From the NCBI RefSeq assembly GCF_034259325.1, contig NZ_JAXIVS010000011.1:1-64000 (forward strand): DNA of 64,000 nt, given 5' to 3'. Positions 1 through 13,041 of the stretch are shown one piece after another; position 1 is the stretch's first letter, and each line of letters starts with the position of its first letter. The translations under genes were made by a program, and so were the position numbers. The notes beneath the pieces were generated by a model, which was not told the origin of the DNA, searched no databases, and saw only the letters and a program-made list of their open reading frames with translations. This DNA is from Hyalangium ruber (GTDB lineage: Bacteria; Myxococcota; Myxococcia; Myxococcales; Myxococcaceae).

Positions 1-50
1 AGGAAAGCGGCTGCGGCCAACGCGACGCCAGCTCCGAACAATCCCTTCAT
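1..50 (-). CDS. Hint-family secreted protein, fourth paralog (5' end only)
   Basis: Only the first 16 or so codons are inside the window; the gene runs off the left edge on the minus strand. The visible residues MKGLFGAGVALAAAAF are a signal-peptide start and nearly match the start of the protein at 283-1404 (MKGLFGACTALAAATF). The DNA is also identical for about 31 bases across the start codon and the AAGGAG ribosome site. It is therefore a recent tandem copy of that gene, in the same orientation. Whether it also carries a Hint domain cannot be seen. Confidence 0.7.
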   Translation of the reverse strand, partial: MKGLFGAGVALAAAAF

Positions 51-195
51 TTCAGACTCCTTGCCGGTGGGTGAGCAGGAGATCCCAGGTCTTTCGCGGA
101 ATCTCATGGAGAACTGAATAAGCGGATGTTTCAAGGAATACAAGATCAATCGCAGAGAAATGAATGAGAGCCAGTAGCGCATTCCTCCAATGAGA

Positions 196-231
196 AAAGC
201 CGGGCACGGCACATAGGCCGAGCCCGGCTTT
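196..231 (-). terminator. Rho-independent-like terminator after the Hint gene
   Basis: A perfect 10-bp stem (AAAGCCGGGC / GCCCGGCTTT) surrounds a 16-base loop. On the minus strand it is followed by TTCTC. It sits about 50 bases past the stop codon of the minus-strand gene at 283-1404, before the partial paralog starts at 50, so the two Hint copies probably have separate transcripts. Confidence 0.65.
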
Positions 232-282
232 CAGGGACTGAGAGACCATGCGGCCCCTCAGTGTCCTAGCCCTTCAGGGTGC

Positions 283-1404
283 TCAGGGAATCACAGCCTG
301 CGGCACCTGCTTGTGGAGGATGATGCGGTTGATGTAGCCAACCTCGTCGTTCTGGAAGAGCGAGGAGCCGACCAGATAGCCCTCGGCCACCAGGATGTTC
401 GAGACGCGGTCGTCCGTTGCCGGGCGCAGGTTGTACACCTTGCCGAAGTACTTGGTGTGCTCGGCCTTCACGATGGCATCACGCGAGCCATCCACCTTGA
501 TGAGCTCGTCGCCCACCTTGAGCGTCTGAGCGGTGACCAGGCGGCCCTCGCCGTTGATCATCGGGTGCTCGGTGGTCACGCTCAGCTTGCCACCGGAAGC
601 CATCTCCAGCAGCACGACGGGGTGCTCGGTGTCCCGGAACTCCGCCGTGTAGCTGTAGGTCTTGTTGGTCTTCAGCGTGATGTTGTCCAGGCTGGAGTTC
701 GGCGTCAGGGTGACGACGTTCTCCTTCATCTGGGTGACGGCCTCGGCGATGGCCACATCCCCCTCAGGGAAGCGGACCCGCTGCTCGGGCGTGTAGCAGG
801 ACGCCTCGCAGTAGCCGTTGACGAAGAAGTTATAGCCCGTCGCCAGCACCGTGCCGGCCTGGTTGAGGTAGAGGTTGCAGTTGAGCGCGCTGCCGGTGAT
901 GAGCTGGCTGGGGTGCGGCCACAGCTGCTTGTTGGTGGCGCTGTAGATGTCGTACTCGCTGCCGAAGGTGGGGTAGAGCGGACGGGCCTTCTTGCGCGCC
1001 AGCTGGCGCTCCCAGCGGTAGTACCCGTCGCCATCCGTGAACTGCGAGGTCGGGCCACTCAGGTAGAGCTTGTTGATGAACGAGGCGTTCATCTCGTACG
1101 CATCATTCTGCCCCGTATAGGTGTTCTGCCCGCCCCAGTTGGTGCTGAGGTCGTCCTCGAGGTAGTCCTTCAGCGTCCCCGCATTGTTCGAGGACGGGGT
1201 GTAGGTGTCGAACCAGGCCCCCGTGTTCGCCACGTGGGTGAGCAATCCACAGCGACGCGCCCAGTTCAAACGCTTCTCTGCCTGAGCTGAATCCAGACTA
1301 TCCGCGTTGCAGCGCTGCTGGAGGATCGGCTGGGCGTCAGCAAGCCCCGGGAGCAGGAAAGTGGCTGCGGCCAATGCGGTGCAAGCCCCGAACAATCCCT
1401 TCAT
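283..1404 (-). CDS. Secreted protein: conserved N-domain fused to a Hint domain
   Basis: 373 residues. Residues 1-24 are a signal peptide ending ADA|Q. Residues 25 to about 198 form a domain shared with the proteins at 5560-6636 and 10424-11665; landmarks are RLNWARRC near the start, GQNTYTG, and ARPLYPTFGS. From Cys203 (EASCYTPEQ) to about residue 355 is a Hedgehog/intein-type Hint fold: the starting Cys, the block-B motif VTTEHP with His280, then VGDEL and a last strand pair around VYNLRP and NILVAEGYLVGSS. The usual terminal His-Asn is absent; an 18-residue tail (FQNDEVGYINRII and beyond) follows. In other Hint families this arrangement supports N-S acyl shift and cleavage rather than splicing; whether this one cleaves is inference. 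The AAGGAG ribosome site is good. A palindromic TCACT-N3-AGTGA element lies 67 bases upstream. Confidence 0.8.
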   Translation of the reverse strand: MKGLFGACTALAAATFLLPGLADAQPILQQRCNADSLDSAQAEKRLNWARRCGLLTHVANTGAWFDTYTPSSNNAGTLKDYLEDDLSTNWGGQNTYTGQNDAYEMNASFINKLYLSGPTSQFTDGDGYYRWERQLARKKARPLYPTFGSEYDIYSATNKQLWPHPSQLITGSALNCNLYLNQAGTVLATGYNFFVNGYCEASCYTPEQRVRFPEGDVAIAEAVTQMKENVVTLTPNSSLDNITLKTNKTYSYTAEFRDTEHPVVLLEMASGGKLSVTTEHPMINGEGRLVTAQTLKVGDELIKVDGSRDAIVKAEHTKYFGKVYNLRPATDDRVSNILVAEGYLVGSSLFQNDEVGYINRIILHKQVPQAVIP

Positions 1405-1470
1405 TTCAGACTCCTTGCTGTTGATTGAGCGTGAGGAGAGGACCCTGCCTCTGGCGAACCCCTCAAATAC

Positions 1471-1483
1471 TCACTTAGAGTGA
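1471..1483 (-). promoter_or_regulatory. TCACT-N3-AGT element upstream of the Hint gene
   Basis: The palindrome TCACTTAGAGTGA lies in a short AT-rich stretch 67 bases upstream of the start at 1404. Related TCACT-N3-AGT elements lie 60 and 65 bases upstream of two other genes of the same island (8192-8204 and 11795-11807), in the same orientation relative to the gene. It may be a shared promoter or operator; this is inference. Confidence 0.3.
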
Positions 1484-1530
1484 AATTTCCATGAATGCAA
1501 GAATAATTTGAACTCCCTGATGATCTTTCT

Positions 1531-3204
1531 TTACCTGAGGCCGCTGGGCTGTACCTGAGGGAGCGCCTGCGATGAGCCTCCGCACCATCCTGTCTCCCCC
1601 TTGAGGGTTGCCTCCCCCTGCCTTCCTCCAGCGGAGGGCGTGGCTCGGGCCGTGGTCAAAAGGAAGGCATCTCGCGCCCCCTTCGCGGGGCCGAAGAGAT
1701 CGCCCGTCGTGAAGCCGCCGATGACAGCCTCTCCACACGCATCCACGGCCACGGTGGACGGGTAGTCTTCCCCGGCGCTGCCCCACTGCCGGACATCGAG
1801 CAGCTCTCCGGAGGAGCTGAGCCGCACGAGGAACACATCCAGCTCGCCCATGTTCTGGTAGTGCTCACTGAGCGTGAGGGGCGTCTGCCCCACCACCAGG
1901 ATATTGCCCGAGCTATCCACCGCCAGGTCCGTCACCCAGTCGGAGTCCTCGGAGCCAAACTGGAAGGTCCACAGCGGCGTACCGGTCTCCGCATCCAGCT
2001 TCCGGACGACGATGTCCTGCTGGCCATAGCTCTGCTCTCCCAGCTGCGCGAAGGTCGAGCCCGCGATGACGATATGTCCATCCGACACGAGCTCGGCCGC
2101 CTGCATCACGTCGACGCCGATGGGGGTCTGGCGCTTGAGCCACACGTTCTGGCCGTTCGTGTCTAGCTTCTGCGCGAAGGTGCCCCGCTGTGCGCCAGCC
2201 AGGACGACGCCCGTGATGTAGATGGACGAGCTGCCCGTGCTCTCGACCGTCGCCCCAGCCAGCAGATCGGAGTAGACGGTGTTGAACTGCCACCACCAGA
2301 GCGCGGAGACCCCATCTGCCCCCCGGCGCAGCTTGGCGACGAACGGGTCCTCCCACTTATCGACATAGTTGCTGGGGATGTAGATGTCGTCGTACCCGCT
2401 GACGATCATGTCCCGCGCGGCATCGAAGTGGAGCCGGCGTGGATGCTGTGGCGTCTCCGTGCCGTCCTGGTAGATGACTTCCAGCTCCGAGGTATCCGTC
2501 GGCCCGCCGAGGATGAGGTCCTGCTGGCCCCGATGGGTGAAGCCGGGGAATGCGCCGGTGGTACGGCCCGCGAAGTACAGCTCGCCGGTGTCAGGGTGGA
2601 AGGCCAGGGCCTCGATGGTGTCCGTCCCAGCGGTATCGAATTCCTTGCTCCAGCCCTGCGTCAGCCCGGACTGGGGCGGTGCGAGCTTGATGACCAGGGC
2701 GCGAGCATCCCCAGAGGGATCGACGTTGGTCGCGCCCGTGATGCCATTCTCGTAGCCAGCGACGAAGATGTTCCCCTGGCCATCGATGACCACGTCGAGA
2801 ACCTCATCGCTGTTCTCCGTTCCCCACATCACCCCGCCCGTGGGCCACTCGGGCGGCAGGACGATACAGTGCGGCGTACCACCGTCTCCTGGCACGCCAC
2901 CACCATCCGGAATGCCACCGTCCCCGGGCGTGCCACCACCGTCCGGAATGCCGCCATCCTCGGGCGTGCCACCACCGTCCGGAATGCCGCCATCCTCGGG
3001 TGTGCCACCACCGTCCGGAATGCCGCCATCCTCGGGCGTGCCACCACCATCCGGAATGCCGCCGTCCTCGGGCGTGCCACCACCATCCGGGGTTCCTGCG
3101 TCAGGCGTGATGACCCCACTGTCCGGCTCATTCGGTGGGGACGAATCGCAGGCCGCCAGAGCCACGGCGGCCACCAGAAACACCACGCTAGGACGCAGGA
3201 CCAT
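1531..3204 (-). CDS. SBBP beta-propeller lipoprotein with PEDGG-type spacer
   Basis: 557 residues. The signal peptide ends in the lipobox ALAAC, so the protein should be lipid-anchored. Next comes a spacer of about six 12-residue units (GGGTPEDGGIPD and variants) that should act as a flexible, acidic stalk. The rest is made of SBBP (seven-bladed beta-propeller) repeats, with typical phrases such as GNIFVAGYENG, GELYFAGRTTGAF and GNILVVGQT. It is a paralog of the neighbour at 3228-4631 (shared SGYDDIYIPSNYV phrase). A GAGGT ribosome site precedes ATG 3204. It starts 23 bases after the upstream stop, so it is probably third in an operon with 4631-5440 and 3228-4631. The role is unknown; SBBP proteins are generally binding or scaffold surface proteins. 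Confidence 0.85.
   Translation of the reverse strand: MVLRPSVVFLVAAVALAACDSSPPNEPDSGVITPDAGTPDGGGTPEDGGIPDGGGTPEDGGIPDGGGTPEDGGIPDGGGTPEDGGIPDGGGTPGDGGIPDGGGVPGDGGTPHCIVLPPEWPTGGVMWGTENSDEVLDVVIDGQGNIFVAGYENGITGATNVDPSGDARALVIKLAPPQSGLTQGWSKEFDTAGTDTIEALAFHPDTGELYFAGRTTGAFPGFTHRGQQDLILGGPTDTSELEVIYQDGTETPQHPRRLHFDAARDMIVSGYDDIYIPSNYVDKWEDPFVAKLRRGADGVSALWWWQFNTVYSDLLAGATVESTGSSSIYITGVVLAGAQRGTFAQKLDTNGQNVWLKRQTPIGVDVMQAAELVSDGHIVIAGSTFAQLGEQSYGQQDIVVRKLDAETGTPLWTFQFGSEDSDWVTDLAVDSSGNILVVGQTPLTLSEHYQNMGELDVFLVRLSSSGELLDVRQWGSAGEDYPSTVAVDACGEAVIGGFTTGDLFGPAKGARDAFLLTTARATPSAGGRQGEATLKGETGWCGGSSQALPQVQPSGLR
2880..3100 (-). repeat. 36-bp coding tandem repeat (12-residue Pro/Glu/Asp/Gly units)
   Basis: About six copies of a 36-base unit encode GGGTPEDGGIPD and close variants in the stalk of the SBBP lipoprotein. 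The central units are almost identical in DNA, and the flanking ones have drifted (PGDGG instead of PEDGG). Such in-frame repeats can change number by slippage and so change stalk length. Confidence 0.85.
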
Positions 3205-3227
3205 TGTCTACCTCAGGCTGCCCATAC

Positions 3228-4631
3228 CTAATAAGCCCCCGTCCCCATGCCGGGAGGCGTCACGCGGAACACGAAGCCATCACGCTGCCCATTGTGCATC
3301 GTTCCGTCGAACAGAAGGTCCGTGGTGTAGCCCGCCACGTAGATATCTCCCTGCGGGCCCACGGCGACGGAGGAGGGATAATCCTCGCCCGGCGAGCTGA
3401 GCTGGAAGTACTCCGGCGCGGTCCCATTCGAGTTCAGCTTGATCAAGAAGATGTCGCTGTTGTCCTCAGGAGGCGGAATGTTGGGATGGAACGAGCCCAG
3501 CGTCTGGCCCACCAGGTAGATGTTGCCGTCGGCATCGACGGTCATGTCCGTGACCCAGTCGGAACTCGTGGTGCCGTAGAGCCTCGTCCACACGGGCTCT
3601 TCGCCCTGGTTCGGAGTCAGCTTCCGCACGACGATGTCCTGCTCGCCAATGACGGGCTGCCCGAAGTCGAAATAGGTGGAGCCGGTGAAGAGCACGTTGT
3701 TGTCCGGCAGCACGTGGAGCGCCGCCCCCATGTCCACGGAGACAGGGGACTGCTGGGAGACCCACTCGACGGTGCCATTCTGCTGGAGCTTCTTCACGAA
3801 CATGCCGCGAGTGCTACCGCTGGCGTTGGCGCCGGCGATGTAGATCGGGGCATTGGCATCGGGCTTCATCGCCATGCCTGGCAGCAAGTCCGTGATGCCG
3901 GTGTTGAACTGGAGCGGCCAGCCGCTGGCGACAGTCAGGTTCGTGCCCGACCGCTGCAACTTCATGACGAACGGATCCTCCCACGCCTCCACGTAGTTGG
4001 AGGGGATGTAGATGTCGTCGTACCCGGAGATGATCATCCCACCGGCGTTGTCGAGCGCCAGTCGCCGCGGGTGCTGCGGGCGGTTCGTGCCGAACTGGAA
4101 GACCTTCTGCGTTCCAGTCAGCGACGTCCAGCCCGCGATGGTGTCGTACTGCCCGGCGTTGGGAGTGTTGTTGAACGAGCCCGTCGTCCGTCCCGCGAAG
4201 TACAGCTCCCACGGGCTTGTACTCGAGCTTCGAGCGCCGACGACCGCCTCGATGACCTCCGACTTCCCATTGCCATTGCCGAACTTGATGGCGGTGCCCT
4301 GGCTGCTCAGGTCCGCGGAGAATTTGTGGATCACTCCACGCGTGTCACCCGAGGGGTCGACACTGGTCATCCCCAGCGTGCCATTCTCGTAGCCAGAGAC
4401 GTAGACGGAGCCATTCTCGGGGTGGATCCAGAGGTCAGTCGCCTCATCATGCCGGATCGTGCCGAAATTGACGCCGACGAGGTTCCACCCGGGAGAGGAC
4501 ACCGAAAACCCGCTCCGGAGCGAGCCCTGCGGGAGCGCATCAGGACCACAGCCGCTCCCCAGCGCGCTCAACGCGGCGGCCGCGAGCATGCTTCTGCCGT
4601 AAACGAAGACTGACATGGATTTTCTTACCAT
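3228..4631 (-). CDS. SBBP beta-propeller lipoprotein
   Basis: 467 residues. A hydrophobic N-terminus followed by LGSGC suggests a lipoprotein, though the lipobox is not ideal. SBBP repeats follow (GSVYVSGYENGTLG, YFAGRTTGSFNN, GNIYLVGQTLG, GDIYVAGYTTD). It is a paralog of 1531-3204 but lacks the repeat stalk. The start at 4631 is chosen because its ATG overlaps the TGA of the upstream gene (TGATG), a sign of translational coupling; an internal ATG at residue 6 is the alternative. Likely surface-exposed; the partner is unknown. Confidence 0.82.
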   Translation of the reverse strand: MVRKSMSVFVYGRSMLAAAALSALGSGCGPDALPQGSLRSGFSVSSPGWNLVGVNFGTIRHDEATDLWIHPENGSVYVSGYENGTLGMTSVDPSGDTRGVIHKFSADLSSQGTAIKFGNGNGKSEVIEAVVGARSSSTSPWELYFAGRTTGSFNNTPNAGQYDTIAGWTSLTGTQKVFQFGTNRPQHPRRLALDNAGGMIISGYDDIYIPSNYVEAWEDPFVMKLQRSGTNLTVASGWPLQFNTGITDLLPGMAMKPDANAPIYIAGANASGSTRGMFVKKLQQNGTVEWVSQQSPVSVDMGAALHVLPDNNVLFTGSTYFDFGQPVIGEQDIVVRKLTPNQGEEPVWTRLYGTTSSDWVTDMTVDADGNIYLVGQTLGSFHPNIPPPEDNSDIFLIKLNSNGTAPEYFQLSSPGEDYPSSVAVGPQGDIYVAGYTTDLLFDGTMHNGQRDGFVFRVTPPGMGTGAY

Positions 4632-5440
4632 CAGGGCTGGGGGTTGGACTTCTGAGCCTGCAGGCTCAACTCGCGCTCCTTGGCCAGGCGGCGCTGGTTG
4701 CTCTCCGCGAAGTACTCCATCATCTTCTCCAGCCGCGTCCCCCGAGCCTTGTCCGTCAGCGCCAGCGTGCGGGCGGGATCATGGCTCGAGAAGATCTCGT
4801 ACAGCTCCATCTTGGTCGCAGCCAGCGAGCGCTTGACCTTGGGATCCATCTGCGCCGTGAAGGAGTCCTCGAGGATGATGGACTCCACCGTGTCGAGCAG
4901 GTACGCGCGGTCGGGGTGATCCTTCAGGCTCAGCCCCTCGCGCAGGTAGTCGATCTGCATCAAGCGCTTGGTATTGGTCTCGGGCGTGTCCTTGGGCTCT
5001 TTCGGGTGCAGCAGATCATCGCGCGTCTGCGCGATCATCTCCTTGTCCATCAGCAGCTTGTGGTAGCCCTCACGGCTGACCGAGTCGAGCAGGACGTGCT
5101 CACGGAAGTAGTCGAACTGCGCCAGCTTGGGCTCTCGCTTGAAGAGCTTCTGCTTGATCATGTCCGTCGCGGTGGTGAACTCGCCATGCTCTCCCTCATC
5201 CTCGGGGAGCGAGCCCTCGCTTGGAGCGGTGAGCAGGGGCGGAATCGCGATCTGGGGAGCGGCGGGCTGGGGCTTCGCCAGGGGCGGGGCGGAGGGCGCG
5301 GCGGGCGCGACGGGCGCGGGTGTCGTGGCTGCCATCTCGGGCAGTTCCACCTCGGGAGTCCCAGACAGGGCCACCTTCACCGCGACAACAGCGATCGTGA
5401 GCAGCACCGCGACGACGAGCGTGATTCGCAAGGGCTTCAT
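4631..5440 (-). CDS. Membrane-anchored helical protein with Ala/Pro linker
   Basis: 269 residues, starting MKPLRITLVVAV. One N-terminal transmembrane helix (about residues 5-25) is followed by an Ala/Pro-rich linker (to about 70) and then a charged, mostly helical domain. This order (anchor, Ala/Pro linker, extended helices) resembles lipase-specific foldases (LifO), and an FDYF phrase occurs, but the full foldase signature is not visible, so no function is claimed. It is first in a probable operon with the two SBBP lipoproteins (1-base TGATG overlap with 3228-4631). A protein of the same layout, not clearly homologous, is at 57385-58068. Confidence 0.65.
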   Translation of the reverse strand: MKPLRITLVVAVLLTIAVVAVKVALSGTPEVELPEMAATTPAPVAPAAPSAPPLAKPQPAAPQIAIPPLLTAPSEGSLPEDEGEHGEFTTATDMIKQKLFKREPKLAQFDYFREHVLLDSVSREGYHKLLMDKEMIAQTRDDLLHPKEPKDTPETNTKRLMQIDYLREGLSLKDHPDRAYLLDTVESIILEDSFTAQMDPKVKRSLAATKMELYEIFSSHDPARTLALTDKARGTRLEKMMEYFAESNQRRLAKERELSLQAQKSNPQP

Positions 5441-5482
5441 CGAAGTCCAACGCCTCCAGTAGGGCAGAGAAACAGGAAGGCC

Positions 5483-5537
5483 CCCACCCGAAAGGGTGGG
5501 AGCTCCGGCCAAGAGCCGGCCAGCCTTCGGCCGGCTC
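5483..5537 (-). terminator. Two hairpins after the second Hint gene
   Basis: Two stem-loops lie between the minus-strand Hint gene (stop at 5560) and the start at 5440: CCCACCC-GAAA-GGGTGGG (5483-5500) and GAGCCGGC/GCCGGCTC (5513-5537). There is no clear T-run, but GC-rich hairpins just after a stop codon are plausible terminators or attenuators in this genome. Confidence 0.45.
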
Positions 5538-5559
5538 CTGATCATCTCAGTACAGCTGA

Positions 5560-6636
5560 CTACGGGATGTGCGGCACGTTGTTGTAGAGGATGATGCGGT
5601 TCATGTAGCCCACATCATCGTTCTGGAAGCGCGAGGAGCCCACGAGGAAGCCCTGGGCCACCAGCACGTTGGAGACCAGATCCTCGGACACCGGGCGGAT
5701 GTTGTACACCTTGCCGAAGTGCTTGACGCGCTCGATGCTCACGATGGCATCGCGGCTGCCGTCGGCGCGCACCAGCTCGTCACCCACCTTCAGGGTCTTG
5801 GCCTGCACCATGCGGCCCTCGCCGTTGATGACCGGGTGCTCGTCCGTCACGCTCAGCTTGCCGCCGCCCACGGTGGAGATGGCGAAGATGTCGTGATCGG
5901 TGTCACGCGTCTCCACCGTGTAGCCGTAGGTCTCGTTGCGGGTCAGCTGGATGTTGTCCAGCGTGGAGCTGGAGGCCAGGGTCACCAGGTCCTCACGGCG
6001 CGAGTTCAGCGCCTCGATGATGGGCATCTCGCCACCCTCGAACAGGATGTTCTGGTCACCCGTGTAGCAGCTCGCCTCGCAGTAGCCGTTCACGAAGAAG
6101 GTGCCGGCCGGCGCCCCGTTGTTCAGCAGCGCGCAGCTGGCGGCGCTGGGGATGAGCTGCTGGTTGCTCGCGTCGTTCAGGTTGGCCGTCGTACCGAAGG
6201 TGGGGTACAGCGGACGGGCGCGGGCGCGCGCGGCGGCACGCGACCAGATCTTGTAGCCGTTCGCATCCGCGCTCTGGGTGGTGGGGCCGCTCAGGAACCG
6301 GGTGTTGACGTTGGCGTAGTTGACCTCGAAGCCGTAGTTCGGCCCGGAGAAGGCGTTCTGGCCGTTGGGGTTCGTGGCGGCGTCGGCCTCCACGTAATCG
6401 AACAGGGTGCCACCGTTCGCGGCCGGGATGCCCGTGTCATACCCGTTGTTCGGGTTGCCAATGCGGAGCTGGACCGCGCACTTGCGGGCCCACTCGATAC
6501 GCGCCAGAGCCTGGGTCGGGTCCAGGTTGTCCGCGCTGCAGCGCTGGAGAAGGATTGGCTGCGCCGACGCCTCCGTGGGAAGCAGCGCTACGCCAGCCAG
6601 GACGACGACAGCACCCAACAGTTGATTCTTGTTCAT
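5560..6636 (-). CDS. Secreted protein: conserved N-domain fused to a Hint domain (second full copy)
   Basis: 358 residues. Signal peptide of about 25 residues ending ASA|Q, then the N-domain shared with 283-1404 and 10424-11665 (RIEWARKC, GQNAFSG, FEVN, ARPLYPTFGT). The Hint domain runs from Cys190 (EASCYTGDQ) through VTDEHP (His267) to NVLVAQGFLVGSS. The Cys-to-His spacing of 77 residues equals that of the first copy (203 to 280). The terminal His-Asn is again missing and the tail FQNDDVGYMNRII is conserved, so the tail itself is probably functional. The two full copies differ clearly in sequence, so this is an older duplication than the partial copy at 1-50. A TGACTCCTT-complement ribosome site (AAGGAGT) precedes the start. 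Confidence 0.8.
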   Translation of the reverse strand: MNKNQLLGAVVVLAGVALLPTEASAQPILLQRCSADNLDPTQALARIEWARKCAVQLRIGNPNNGYDTGIPAANGGTLFDYVEADAATNPNGQNAFSGPNYGFEVNYANVNTRFLSGPTTQSADANGYKIWSRAAARARARPLYPTFGTTANLNDASNQQLIPSAASCALLNNGAPAGTFFVNGYCEASCYTGDQNILFEGGEMPIIEALNSRREDLVTLASSSTLDNIQLTRNETYGYTVETRDTDHDIFAISTVGGGKLSVTDEHPVINGEGRMVQAKTLKVGDELVRADGSRDAIVSIERVKHFGKVYNIRPVSEDLVSNVLVAQGFLVGSSRFQNDDVGYMNRIILYNNVPHIP

Positions 6637-6884
6637 GCTGACTCCTTAAAAAAAGGGACAACTCCCGTACTTCAGACGAACGACTGCTCCTCGGCGCTGT
6701 CTCGCGACACCACCTGAGTTCTTATCGAATGTGATTGCTTGGTTTGCTCGCTGCCCCCGCCACCAGTCGCACTCGCTCTTCACTGGTATACACTTGTTTT
6801 CGCTAAATGTCATGCCTTTTAGGGAAAACAGGTTTGGCGGGTTGATCTATGGGTTTCCCCATAGAAGTGTGCGCCTGCCCGCAG

Positions 6885-6912
6885 CAAAGCCCCGCGGGTG
6901 AGCGGGGCTTTG
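6885..6912 (-). terminator. Terminator hairpin after the beta-rich secreted protein gene
   Basis: An 11-bp stem, CAAAGCCCCGC / GCGGGGCTTTG, with a 6-base loop begins just past the stop codon of the minus-strand gene at 6924-8132. Confidence 0.65.
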
Positions 6913-6923
6913 ACTGCTTGGGC

Positions 6924-8132
6924 TTACTGCGCCTGGGCCACGACGTCCGGCGCCTCGGCAGGGCCATTCATGTAGTTGCACATGCCGAGGTCCTTGGTGC
7001 CGTTCACGTCGACGAGGGTCCAGTTGTAGTTCAACCCATTCCACTGAGCGATGGTCACGGACCACTTCTTGCTGAAGAAGAGGAACTTGATCTTCGCGTA
7101 CAGGCTCAGGGTGCCGGAGAGCGTGTTCAGGGCCAGGTTGGACTTGAGCTTCCAGTTGATGGTGCACAGCGGCCAGAAGAGCTCCCCTGTCGACGGCATG
7201 GTGGCATTGATGAGGGTGAGGCTGCCCTCGACGCCGAAGCTGGCGATGATGATGCTGACCGAGGCCGAGGCCGTGACATTGGACCACCCGCCGGGGGTCG
7301 CGGTCAGGCGCGCCACGGTCGGGGTGACCTCGCCCAGCACGGTGAGCTTGACGCCGCCCGCCAGCGAGGCCTTCACGTTGATCGGCACGGGGCCCACCAT
7401 GAACGTCTTCGAGGCGGACAGGAACGTGCGGCTCCAGTTGATGGGGGCCGGAGCAAACGTATAGGAGAGGTTGGTGGACCAGATCTGCTGGCCGACCGCA
7501 TAGAGCGCTGCCGTGCCGCTGTTGGCGCCGCCCTGCTGACCGCGGATCTCCACGCGGCCCCGGACCAGCTCCTTCTGGGTGTTGAACGCGGTGCCGAAGA
7601 CCTTGCCCTCGGCGAACGCCTCGACCCGCTTGGCCTCGCTCAGCGACCCGTCGGTGGCCGTGATGGCGGCATCGATGGCGTAGCCACCGCCAAAGATGTT
7701 GTTACCGAAGCTCTGCGTGCGAGAGTACGACTTGTTGTACGAGGGGCTCTGGAACTGCGGGTCCGCCGCCGGGAAGTGCTCCACGGTGGGCGGCACGTTC
7801 TGGATGACCGCCTCTGGGATGTTGCCCTGGATGATCGAGACCAGCGGCATTCCCGTCGGGTCGGTGGACAGGATGCCGCCCGTTACGTCCAACTCGTCCT
7901 GGACGATCAACTGCTGCTCATACGGGTGGTAGTAGAGGCCCGGATTGAAGGGATACGAAGACTCCCAGGCGTAGTTGTCGTTCAGCTGGTAGCTGGTGGG
8001 GTAGGCAACGTACGGATATTGCACCTCGACCTGATAGGGCTGGGGATCCGGGAAGTGCGGTTCCGCAGCGAGAGCAAGCCCAGGCACGAGTACTGCAGCC
8101 ATCAGCACTGTCTTCAGAATGGGGCGCGTCAT
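6924..8132 (-). CDS. Beta-rich secreted protein of unknown function
   Basis: 402 residues starting MTRPILKTVLM, with a signal peptide ending ALAAE. Residues about 24-130 are rich in Tyr, Pro and Asn. The second half is made of alternating hydrophobic and polar stretches such as INVKASLAGGVKLTVLG and LSLYAKIKFLF, as expected for amphipathic beta strands. I do not recognise the family. It lies 195 bases downstream of, and on the same strand as, the HEAT-repeat protein at 8327-10288, which may be a partner. A TCACT-N3-AGT element lies 60 bases upstream. The start is chosen at the signal peptide; the longer open frame upstream has no coding look. Confidence 0.75.
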   Translation of the reverse strand: MTRPILKTVLMAAVLVPGLALAAEPHFPDPQPYQVEVQYPYVAYPTSYQLNDNYAWESSYPFNPGLYYHPYEQQLIVQDELDVTGGILSTDPTGMPLVSIIQGNIPEAVIQNVPPTVEHFPAADPQFQSPSYNKSYSRTQSFGNNIFGGGYAIDAAITATDGSLSEAKRVEAFAEGKVFGTAFNTQKELVRGRVEIRGQQGGANSGTAALYAVGQQIWSTNLSYTFAPAPINWSRTFLSASKTFMVGPVPINVKASLAGGVKLTVLGEVTPTVARLTATPGGWSNVTASASVSIIIASFGVEGSLTLINATMPSTGELFWPLCTINWKLKSNLALNTLSGTLSLYAKIKFLFFSKKWSVTIAQWNGLNYNWTLVDVNGTKDLGMCNYMNGPAEAPDVVAQAQ

Positions 8133-8191
8133 CAGTATCCCTTTTGTGGACTGCGGGGACAGCACGACATTTACGCTTGGGGAACGCTTAC

Positions 8192-8204
8192 ATACTCTGA
8201 GTGA
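8192..8204 (-). promoter_or_regulatory. TCACT-N3-AGT element
   Basis: On the minus strand this reads TCACTCAGAGTAT, 60 bases upstream of the start at 8132. It matches elements at a similar distance upstream of 283-1404 and 11872-13041. Function inferred. Confidence 0.3.
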
Positions 8205-8326
8205 ATAAAAGAGAAAAGAGGGGTCGTCCGGATTTTCACGAATAGTTGGTCTTTCGGATGCGTGTATAAAATTCGGCCCTGGCCGAAAAGCCACGCTCGT
8301 GAATTTGAGAGGAATGGCGGACTGCG

Positions 8327-10288
8327 TCAGGGAGCAGGAGGCAGGGGCCGCGCGGAGGGCTGGAGGAAGGACAGCGCGGCCTGACGAATGTCGGCGCTGC
8401 GGTCGTGCTGGCTGGACCAGGTGAGCAGGGCCTCCGCCTGCGGCACGGCAGCGCGGTTTCTGCCCAGCAGGACGACGATCTCCGCTCGCACTGTGTCCGC
8501 CGGGTCGCTCTGCAGGGCCCGCTGGAGCGCGGGGAGCAGGGGCATCAGGGCGCGGAAGCTGCATGCGAAGACCACGCTCTTGCGGACCTCGGGAGCTGAA
8601 TCCGTGACGAGCAGCTCGCTCAAGAGACGATCCATGGAGGGATCCGGATAGAAGCGCAGCGCGACGGCGGCCGCGGCACGCACCTGCGCGGAGGTGGAGC
8701 GCGCGCCCTCGAGGATGAGGGGGATCGCGCTGGCGGAGTGGGTGTTGCCCAGGGCCCGCAGCACCAGCGCCTGCTGCTCGGGGCTCGTGGCCGACCGGTA
8801 GGCAGCGCTCAACTTCTCCACCAGGGTGCCTGCACGCCCGGTGTCTTCGTCCTGAAGGTTCATGGCCGCGTTGCCCAGCGCCAGGGTGGCCGTCTCGCGC
8901 AGCTCCGGCGTCGCTCCCTGGGCGGTGCGCCACAGCGTGTCCACGCCTTCCTGCGTGGGCGCCTCTGCCATGCCCAGAGCGGCGACCGCGTCCGTGCGGA
9001 CGGGCTGCGAGAGGGTGGTGTCCTCGATGGTGCGTGACAGGACCTGGACTGCCTCGGGAGTGCTGGCCGCCGACAGGGCCCCGAGCATGGGGCTGGCCGC
9101 GATCGGATCAATTCCCGAGCGCAGGATGTCCGAGACCTTCAGCGCCTCGGTTGGCTGGAGCATGAAGAGCGCGCGCAGCCGCTCGAGCGCCGCCGTGCGC
9201 GCGTCATCCCGGGCCTTCTCGTCCTGGGGAAGGGAACGCAGATCCTGGACCATGTCCTCGAAGCGCCTGTTGCCCAGGACCTGCCGGTAGTGCTCCATGG
9301 GATCCGGGGCTTGCCCCACGAGGCTGGCCAGCGCTTGGGTGACCAGTGACGCCTGTCGCGCGCTCATCGCTCCCAGCAGCGAAGCATCCTCGAGGCGATC
9401 CAGCAGGCGCAGCGACACCTGGTGAGTGGTGCTGGCCTCGGGCATCCCTTCGCCCATATTGACCACCAGCGTCTCTGCTCCCTCGAGCGAGCGGATCCAC
9501 AAATCCTCCGCCAGCTCGATGGTGCTCAGCGAGCGCACCTGGATCTGGACACTCGGATCCAGGGGGGCCAGCCCTTGCGGCGTCGCCATATGGGTGTAGT
9601 GGCGCTTGGTCTTCTCGACGCGAGCTGGGGCCAGGAGGCGGTATGCGGCCAGATACTGTCCCGTGGAGTCGAACTCCGTCGCCTCCCAGGAAGCGCGCGG
9701 CGCCCCGGCCATGACGAACTGGGTGGAGGCAACCATGGAGCGGAGGAGCCCCTGCGCCAGGCCGTCGAGCTCCCGCTCGAAATGGACGAACTTCACGGCA
9801 CCGGTCCTGTCCAGCGTGATGAAGAAAGGCGTTGCCAGGCTGAGCGACAGCGCGCGCTCGACCTCGGGGGCGAGCCTTTGCTGCCCCTCGACGCTCGCGG
9901 AGAACGAGGCCAGCCGCAGGTGGACGCGCGCCTCGATGCGCTCCTCCTGAGCGGAGATGAGGCCCACGTCCCACTCCCCCTTCAGCTGGAACCGCATCCC
10001 CGGCATCGCGGGAGTCGCGCTCTGGGGTTGCCGCAGGGTGATGTCCTGATCGCTGCTCACGGCATAGCGGTAGAGGCTGCCAGGGCGCCACGCGCGCGTG
10101 CTCGCGGGAGCCTTCGTGGCGGCGGTCCCCGTTTGGCTCTCAGGCCTGGCAGCGGGTTGCAGAGCGGGAGCCGGCGCCAGGCTCGGATCTTCGGGTTTCC
10201 CCTGATCCGTTGTCGCCCACCAGCCCCCCAGGCCGAGCAGGACGACAACCAACGGCACCCCCAGGAGCCACGCGCGATTGCCGGACAT
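8327..10288 (-). CDS. Membrane-anchored HEAT-repeat protein, possibly vitellogenin-N-like
   Basis: 653 residues. One N-terminal membrane helix (about residues 5-25) is followed by an Ala/Pro linker. Residues about 65-280 form a beta-rich domain opening with WRPGSLYRYAV and ending in a lipid-transfer-like pattern. Residues about 310-640 are helical HEAT-type repeats (for example PVRTDAVAALGMA, AQVRAAAAVALRF, PEVRKSVVFACSF). A beta barrel followed by a helical repeat array is the order seen in the N-terminal part of vitellogenin-type large lipid transfer proteins; I infer only a possible relation. The start MSGNRAW at 10288 has a GAGAG ribosome site close by; a longer start at 10321 has none. 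It is divergent from 10424-11665. Confidence 0.7.
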   Translation of the reverse strand: MSGNRAWLLGVPLVVVLLGLGGWWATTDQGKPEDPSLAPAPALQPAARPESQTGTAATKAPASTRAWRPGSLYRYAVSSDQDITLRQPQSATPAMPGMRFQLKGEWDVGLISAQEERIEARVHLRLASFSASVEGQQRLAPEVERALSLSLATPFFITLDRTGAVKFVHFERELDGLAQGLLRSMVASTQFVMAGAPRASWEATEFDSTGQYLAAYRLLAPARVEKTKRHYTHMATPQGLAPLDPSVQIQVRSLSTIELAEDLWIRSLEGAETLVVNMGEGMPEASTTHQVSLRLLDRLEDASLLGAMSARQASLVTQALASLVGQAPDPMEHYRQVLGNRRFEDMVQDLRSLPQDEKARDDARTAALERLRALFMLQPTEALKVSDILRSGIDPIAASPMLGALSAASTPEAVQVLSRTIEDTTLSQPVRTDAVAALGMAEAPTQEGVDTLWRTAQGATPELRETATLALGNAAMNLQDEDTGRAGTLVEKLSAAYRSATSPEQQALVLRALGNTHSASAIPLILEGARSTSAQVRAAAAVALRFYPDPSMDRLLSELLVTDSAPEVRKSVVFACSFRALMPLLPALQRALQSDPADTVRAEIVVLLGRNRAAVPQAEALLTWSSQHDRSADIRQAALSFLQPSARPLPPAP

Positions 10289-10423
10289 GGGCTCTCGGAT
10301 ACACAGTCCTAGGACGGACAATCAAGTAAAACTGAAATAATTTGCACATTCGGACTACAAGGCTTGTCAGGATGATTGTATAATTTCAGCGGCATCGTTT
10401 TCCAAGAAGGAGGTAGAACCCGC

Positions 10424-11665
10424 ATGAGGCTCCTGCTCTCTCCTGTGTTCATCCTGACGTGGTGCGTCTTCAGCCCTACGGAAGCCCTGGCGCAATTCGG
10501 GCAATGCGGAATGGATGCCATCAGCCGAGCGGACGCGGAGGCCCGGGTGGAGTGGGCCCGCAGGTGCGCGCTCAACAAGCTGGCCACCACCCAGGGGTTT
10601 CCCGTCACCGACGGCCCCAACCCGATGATCGACTATCAGGAGGTGGCTCCATCCACCTATGGCCAGAACGCCTTCCATGGCGACTTCATGAACTTCGAGG
10701 TCAACGCGACCTACTCTTATTCACTTTTCTCCATCATGCCTTACACGCAGGTGATGGATGCCTATGGCTTCTACCAGTGGACCTCCGCGACCAATAGGCG
10801 GGCCAACCCGTACTACCCAATCTTCGGCACCACGCCCACGCCCGGAGTGGGCAGCCAGCTCTACCCTCACCCACAACTGAGGGACTGCAACCTCTATACG
10901 GATCGCAGCGGCTACAACGTGGCGCCGACGTTCTATGTGAGCATGTACTGCAGCTCCACTCCCGAGGCCCTCGCCAACGGAGTCCCTCTCGCGGGGCAGA
11001 GCTACGGTGCCGGCACCGAGAAGGTGTTCACCGTGGCCGTGCCGGAGGGCTCGGTGGGCCTGAGCATCACCCTCAGCGGTGGCTCGGGGAACGCGGACCT
11101 GTACGTCAAGCGAGGCAGCCCACCGACGACGGGCTCGTATGACTGCGCCTCGGCCTACGGCGGCAGCTACGACTCGTGCTACTTCCCGTCCGCCGAGGGC
11201 ACCTACTACGTGATGGTGCGGGGCACCACGAGCTACTCCAACGTCTCGGTGTCGGCACGCTGGAACGCGCTCTCGCCCAACAGCCCCGTCTACAACCTCT
11301 ATGCGGGGTGGGGGACCGAGAAGTACTACACCTTCTACGTCCCCAGTGGCAGCTCCAGCGCCTCGTTCAACATCTCGGGCGGAACGGGAGACGCGGACAT
11401 CTATGTCCGCTACGGCGCCCCGCCCACCCTGAATGACTTTGACTGCCGGCCCTATACCGGCGGCAATGCCGAGACCTGCTCCTTCTCTTATCCCAGCGGG
11501 GGCACCTACTACGTCATGGTCCGGGCCTGGAGCAGGTACTCCGGCGTGGCACTCTCCGCCAACTACGTCACGCCACCGCCACCGCCACCCTCCTGTCTGG
11601 GACAGCAGATGCTGCCCCAATGCCCGGTCGATCAGATGGCGTGTCCCCAGGACCCCTGCCTTTGA
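10424..11665 (+). CDS. Secreted protein: conserved N-domain fused to two PPC domains
   Basis: 413 residues. A very strong ribosome site (AAGAAGGAGGT, 10403-10413) sets the start MRLLLSPVF. The signal peptide ends ALA|Q. Residues about 25-175 are the same N-domain as in the two Hint proteins (RVEWARRC, GQNAFHG, FEVN, ANPYYPIFGT). The similarity stops at a YC dipeptide near residue 175, the same place where the Hint module begins in the paralogs. Two PPC (bacterial pre-peptidase C-terminal) domains follow, about residues 183-280 and 286-380, each with GNADLYVKRG or GDADIYVRYG and GTYYVMVR. The end is a proline run and a short tail with four cysteines. PPC domains are usually removed after secretion, so the N-domain is the likely mature part; this last step is inference. 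Confidence 0.82.
   Translation: MRLLLSPVFILTWCVFSPTEALAQFGQCGMDAISRADAEARVEWARRCALNKLATTQGFPVTDGPNPMIDYQEVAPSTYGQNAFHGDFMNFEVNATYSYSLFSIMPYTQVMDAYGFYQWTSATNRRANPYYPIFGTTPTPGVGSQLYPHPQLRDCNLYTDRSGYNVAPTFYVSMYCSSTPEALANGVPLAGQSYGAGTEKVFTVAVPEGSVGLSITLSGGSGNADLYVKRGSPPTTGSYDCASAYGGSYDSCYFPSAEGTYYVMVRGTTSYSNVSVSARWNALSPNSPVYNLYAGWGTEKYYTFYVPSGSSSASFNISGGTGDADIYVRYGAPPTLNDFDCRPYTGGNAETCSFSYPSGGTYYVMVRAWSRYSGVALSANYVTPPPPPPSCLGQQMLPQCPVDQMACPQDPCL

Positions 11666-11871: not shown

Positions 11872-13041
<1,170 letters not shown>

Follow-up and report, generated by a model that had tools for sequence, protein, structure and literature searches.

The window, a stretch of Hyalangium ruber DNA, spans the first 64 kb of contig C11 in a 10.8 Mb genome of the Myxococcota and encodes a family of secreted proteins in which a cysteine-rich N-terminal domain (the N-domain) is joined to different C-terminal modules. 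A sequence-only reading of the window had proposed three such proteins, and all three open reading frames are present (Table 1). In BLASTP comparisons, the protein with two PPC domains matched the two Hint-containing proteins with E 1e-20 (36% identity) and 2e-22 (34%), and as these matches are confined to the N-terminal part, the likeness of the N-domains is not a chance one. The assignment of Hint to two proteins and of a PPC pair to the third, with the switch at an identical YC position, was borne out. A fourth copy, thought to begin at position 50, also proved real: contig C7 opens with 255 bp that are the reverse complement of window positions 1-255 with 1 mismatch, and across this overlap the gene continues as a complete N-Hint gene. 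Elsewhere in the genome, contig C25 carries two more N-Hint genes, one with Ser in place of the first Hint residue, Cys1, and contig C26 carries two adjoining genes for the N-domain alone, ending in '...FYVNGYCEASP*' and '...FYLNAFCVP*'.

Table 1. Genes of the N-domain locus, with the coordinates of their parts in the window
Feature	Position (strand)	Length (residues)	Parts and remarks
N-Hint protein	283-1404 (-)	373	signal peptide present; N-domain 799-1332; Hint and tail 286-798, beginning at Cys1
N-Hint protein	5560-6636 (-)	358	N-domain 6070-6561; Hint and tail 5563-6069
N-PPC protein	10424-11665 (+)	413	N-domain 10496-10957; PPC 10976-11272 and 11273-11566
Fourth N-Hint gene	1-50 (-)		first codons; whole gene C7:206-1318
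Partner gene	4631-5440 (-)	269	N-terminal membrane anchor, Pro/Ala linker, helical domain; directly downstream of N-Hint
Secreted protein, no family assigned	6924-8132 (-)	402	conserved neighbour
HEAT-repeat protein	8327-10288 (-)	653	scores on Pfam Vitellogenin_N; conserved neighbour
SBBP beta-propeller protein	3228-4631 (-)		recurrent neighbour
SBBP beta-propeller protein	1531-3204 (-)		recurrent neighbour
Subtilisin-like S8 protease with I9 propeptide	11872-13041 (+)		recurrent neighbour

Four architectures built on one N-domain

A profile built from eight N-domains detected 70 N-domains in 20 of the 96 genomes of the host family, distributed over 6 of its 26 genera; the remaining Myxococcota genomes in the search (195 in all) yielded none. 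Neither outcome that would have spoken against the sequence-only reading was obtained: the three regions of the window are related, and the domain also occurs without Hint. Sorted by architecture, the 66 proteins comprise 49 N-Hint, 7 N-PPC, 6 with the N-domain alone and 4 with two N-domains in tandem (N-N). The PPC pair of the window matches PF04151 with E 9e-38 (129.5 bits vs a curated cut-off of 25.9), and all seven N-PPC assignments were confirmed against it. Proteins with the N-domain alone stop no more than about 4 residues past the C-terminal cysteine of the domain (YCEASP*, FCESA* and FCEPS*, for example), the point at which the other proteins pass into Hint or PPC.

Architectures were mapped onto an IQ-TREE phylogeny of 58 N-domains, and changes were counted from well supported branches. 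The tree forces at least 3 changes for PPC and at least 2 for the N-domain alone, with 8 architecture changes in all vs 20.0 in shuffles; swapping has therefore been repeated and is not a single event. The module swapping proposed for the window is strongly supported by these four architectures, by at least three independent gains of PPC and by six stand-alone copies that end at the Hint junction. Beside intact copies lie some N-Hint paralogues (L075 9411-10592, L078 1-1173, L079 3796-5037) in which Hint has decayed and extra sequence is inserted ahead of the junction. A contig scan with a narrow derived sequence pattern gave four loci (one Archangium metagenome-assembled genome), and a search of a phage collection gave no match.

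Across the 58 sequences, three of four conserved cysteines in the N-domain (C33, C53, C168 and C186 in the numbering of window protein P0003) are invariant and the first is nearly so; D, R, Y, E, N, G and W residues are likewise invariant, and the cysteines are probably disulfide-bonded. Structure prediction, which the sequence-only reading had suggested, produced a confident AlphaFold2 fold (predicted local distance difference test score, pLDDT, 95; predicted template modelling score, pTM, 0.89). The N-domain sequence had no match in Pfam, NCBIfam or PDB, and comparisons of the fold returned at best E 0.8 in PDB and E 0.38 in BFVD with Foldseek and Z 2.0 with VIA, an absence that is not proof. 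Choice-of-anchor W (NF041928) was considered as a family for the N-domain and rejected, since it scored 18.7 vs a cut-off of 45 bits with a single member, in a match that includes the signal peptide and disappears with the N-domain alone. The N-domain changes faster than Hint (mean identity 46% vs 62%), with Hint the more similar in 549 of 561 pairs. In tandem N-Hint pairs at L083, L084, L086 and L089, one gene of each pair has a poly-glycine linker between signal peptide and N-domain.

Active-site residues of the Hint domain

PT-HINT (PF07591) is the best Pfam name for the C-terminal domain, although single sequences fall below its cut-off (E 5e-4), and 33 of the 34 family members score on TIGR01445, an intein N-terminal model (best 1.4e-6). 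When the full-length predicted model was compared with PDB using Foldseek, it matched intein 1mi8 (E 1.9e-8, TMt 0.78), the BIL domain 2lwy (0.80) and Hedgehog 1at0 (0.73), which gives it the Hint fold of the HINT superfamily. The residues characteristic of that superfamily, an N-terminal Cys/Ser and a TxxH block B, are present: in an alignment of 88 Hint copies, Cys1 occupies all 84 ungapped rows, and the T and H of block B are found in 86 and 87 copies, respectively. The positions of the intein His-Asn pair, located by eye with the conserved 'GYLVGS' block as a guide, carry Gly in 86/88 and Ser in 82/88. Beyond Gly-Ser lies a conserved tail, 'xFQNxxVxxxNRxILxxxVP' (its Arg in 84/88), and the protein ends about 25 residues past Gly-Ser.

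These features separate the domain from its better known relatives. Inteins have a C-terminal His-Asn, a +1 nucleophile and extein ligation, and here the C-extein is absent; A-type BIL domains keep the C-terminal His-Asn, which is lost here; and PT-HINT toxins carry a toxin domain C-terminal to Hint, where these proteins soon end. Hedgehog Hint domains perform the N-S acyl shift only, and the products of BIL domains are mainly cleaved ones (PMC7664689). Because Cys1 and TxxH are kept while His-Asn is replaced by Gly-Ser, the simplest reading of the sequence is that this Hint is suited to Cys1-dependent N-terminal cleavage or transfer rather than to splicing.

The partner gene, its neighbours and the wider family

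Directly downstream of an N-Hint gene of the window lies a gene for a helical partner protein, its membrane anchor and helical nature judged by inspection of the sequence. A profile of the helical part alone matched 30 of 189 Myxococcota genomes, all 30 of which have a strong Hint match (E below 1e-40), and no partner was found among the searched genomes that lack one. All 38 copies are on the same strand as an N-Hint gene and within 3 kb of it (30/30 genomes; compared by hand), counts that come from related genomes and do not represent independent events. A guess from the gene layout that the partner resembles a lipase chaperone was dropped, as it found no support in Pfam or PDB.

Other neighbours recur as well: the 402-residue protein without a family, the HEAT protein that scores on Vitellogenin_N, SBBP or Kelch beta-propellers and the S8 subtilase. 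The 402-residue protein, which has no Pfam or PDB match, shows 44-72% identity to its relatives; in several genera it is encoded next to the HEAT protein, also at places where N-Hint was not seen nearby. The HEAT protein has a membrane anchor and reaches 50.2 bits on Vitellogenin_N vs a Pfam cut-off of 24; PF01347 is matched by 15 of 15 members (best 2.6e-18), the stretch matched in the window member being its HEAT part (400-602), and its PDB matches are HEAT and alphaRep chains. It could be a bacterial lipid-transfer-like protein, or the score could reflect a mere HEAT match. In the SBBP protein at 1531-3204, a lipoprotein-like signal is followed by imperfect Gly/Asp/Thr/Pro-rich repeats (window 2880-3110; GGGTPEDGGIPD).

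Genomes that have the neighbour genes and no N-domain detectable with the first profile encode other N-Hint proteins with diverged N-terminal parts. These relatives occur across the Myxococcaceae, in a Myxococcota family with small genomes (1.3-1.8 Mb) and on one Bdellovibrio plasmid, pBdHAGR2 of Bdellovibrio sp. HAGR004, where a tblastn search of plasmids found one protein with N-core, Hint and tail. In the genomes with the neighbour genes, the Hint domains of these proteins are strongly conserved (for most E 1e-50 to 1e-63, and in a group with short N-parts 1e-31 to 1e-34). A Hint-tail profile matched 62 of the 189 genomes, including the small-genome family, its weaker matches taking in other Hint proteins such as those of the P0009 type. 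The diverged N-parts are distantly related: group I matched groups II, III and IV and the small-genome family with E 1.7e-7 to 1.5e-11, and the Bdellovibrio N-part with E 1.1e-5 in an unanchored profile comparison, where the reversed controls of these five pairs gave E 0.095 to 0.63. They have in common the motif 'RC..D.L..aQA..R..WA.kC' and a last Cys before 'xxCYTPEQ'. Distant versions of the partner follow the Hint gene in the small-genome Myxococcota (E 1e-29, 3e-24 and 2e-5) and in the short-N group (E 1e-5 and 3e-4); the match on the Bdellovibrio plasmid is weak (E 0.0012 in a small search; hhalign E 0.019). In the small genomes (L131-L135), N-Hint stands beside a secreted Kelch protein or a 420-residue protein, the N-terminal parts of which look pore-former-like by eye and have no Pfam support.

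Proposed processing of the precursor and comparison with known systems

We consider it fairly probable, judging from the conserved residues, that the N-domain is released or transferred from a secreted precursor in a Cys1-dependent manner. The cysteine-rich N-domain would be the functional unit of the family, perhaps with a role at the cell surface or towards prey. Cys1, aided by the TxxH histidine, would perform an N-S acyl shift; since Gly-Ser stands in place of the His-Asn needed for splicing, water or an external nucleophile would then resolve the thioester and release (or conjugate) an N-domain ending in ...YCEAS. Stand-alone genes would yield that same end product directly, and in PPC fusions autoprocessing would have been exchanged for a different C-terminal module. 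The membrane-anchored partner probably holds, folds or secretes the N-Hint precursor at the cell envelope.

The sequence-only reading had suggested that the common N-domain may be the active part, set free from both types of C-terminal module. For Hint, the retention of Cys1 and TxxH and the loss of His-Asn speak in its favour; for PPC, removal stays a supposition. This last point weighs against the reading favoured here, as do three others: cleavage is deduced from sequence, the fold of the N-domain points to no particular activity, and the Ser1 copy on contig C25, together with a few degenerate Hint copies, implies that processing may not always be needed. A single domain made with, without or with a different processing module allows the purpose of C-terminal autoprocessing to be tested, and what a cleaved N-Hint protein should yield can be predicted exactly from its stand-alone paralogue.

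Among the alternatives, a Hedgehog-like conjugation is possible but unlikely. Here an envelope molecule (lipid, amine or sugar) chosen by the tail would attack the thioester, and the N-domain would be covalently anchored and not released. The missing C-terminal His-Asn agrees with this, as do the Hedgehog Hint among the structural matches of the full-length model and the conserved tail that follows Gly-Ser for about 25 residues and occupies the place of the Hedgehog adduct recognition region (PMC2362128). Hedgehog and Hog proteins likewise have a secreted N-terminal domain that is more variable than Hint, a C-terminal Hint with an N-S acyl shift and an extra C-terminal region. However, the tail is short, with no likeness seen to the sterol recognition region, no adduct is known, and stand-alone copies would be left without the modification; the present family is bacterial, shows no sign of cholesterol, and no kinship between its N-domain and that of Hedgehog was found.

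It is rather doubtful that the family forms a toxin and immunity pair, in which the fast-diverging N-domain would be secreted as an antibacterial effector and the helical, membrane-anchored neighbour would be its immunity protein. The faster divergence of the N-domain, a partner that always adjoins N-Hint, PT-HINT as the best Pfam name and occurrence in predatory groups would all suit such a pair. PT-HINT toxins, however, sit C-terminal to Hint, and in the proteins described here the order is reversed, with Hint itself C-terminal and no toxin after it. Moreover, several N-Hint genes of the window share a single partner, and the N-alone, N-N and N-PPC genes may have no partner of their own.

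We give a low likelihood to a Hedgehog-like delivery system of predators, in which the C-type BIL would autoprocess a fast-diverging, disulfide-rich N-domain ligand of new fold, which would then be joined covalently to a molecule of the envelope or of the prey that the conserved tail selects. The partner would take part together with the cluster (a HEAT/Vitellogenin_N-like carrier, beta-propellers and subtilase), and PPC and stand-alone versions would be differently located forms of one ligand. Equally improbable is an inactive structural or sorting Hint in a family of adhesins or coat proteins whose C-terminal modules can be exchanged: replacement by PPC, by nothing or by a tandem N-domain, some degenerate copies and the Cys1 to Ser change would allow it, but near invariance of Cys1, Thr and His with uniform loss of His-Asn is the pattern of a selected N-terminal chemistry.

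Dori-Bachash et al. reportedly described, in 2009, a C-type BIL domain with PPS-1 in predatory bacteria. In the words of a text that cites this work, the C-type BIL is accompanied by a conserved predator-specific domain (PMC9185962). The Hint domain described here is very probably the C-type BIL and the N-core PPS-1, an identification drawn from the title of the paper and the citing sentence. The self-cutting Hint half has thus very probably already been reported from predatory bacteria. Occurrence in Myxococcaceae and on the Bdellovibrio sp. HAGR004 plasmid agrees with this, as do a Hint domain in secreted proteins of predators and the N-core, Hint and tail of the plasmid protein. No mention of replacement by PPC, of stand-alone or tandem N-domains or of a linked membrane-anchored partner was found in the text consulted; as far as we have found, tail replacement, stand-alone copies and the conserved partner gene appear to be new. 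The constant partner gene gives practical access to the machinery that surrounds C-type BILs. N-Hint and partner are found together in the Myxococcota and, with less certainty, in Bdellovibrio, both of them bacteria that prey on others.

PPC proteins (PF04151) have the C-terminal PPC pair in common with the N-PPC proteins, in which the N-domain stands in place of a peptidase domain and none was found. A bacterial Hint subgroup described by Burglin in 2008 comprises STIAU_1829, MXAN_6253 and proteins of Reinekea, Serratia and Yersinia, and has a C-terminal Hint, signal peptides, conserved upstream cysteines and myxobacterial members, as here (PMC2362128). It may correspond to the longer proteins of the P0009 type, represented in the present genome at C5:566675. 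The same genome encodes two additional Hint proteins, of 628 residues (L009 1384-3270) and 280 residues (L010 994-1836), whose N-terminal parts the N-domain profile does not match, and the longer matches Pseudoalteromonas sequences over residues 263-620.

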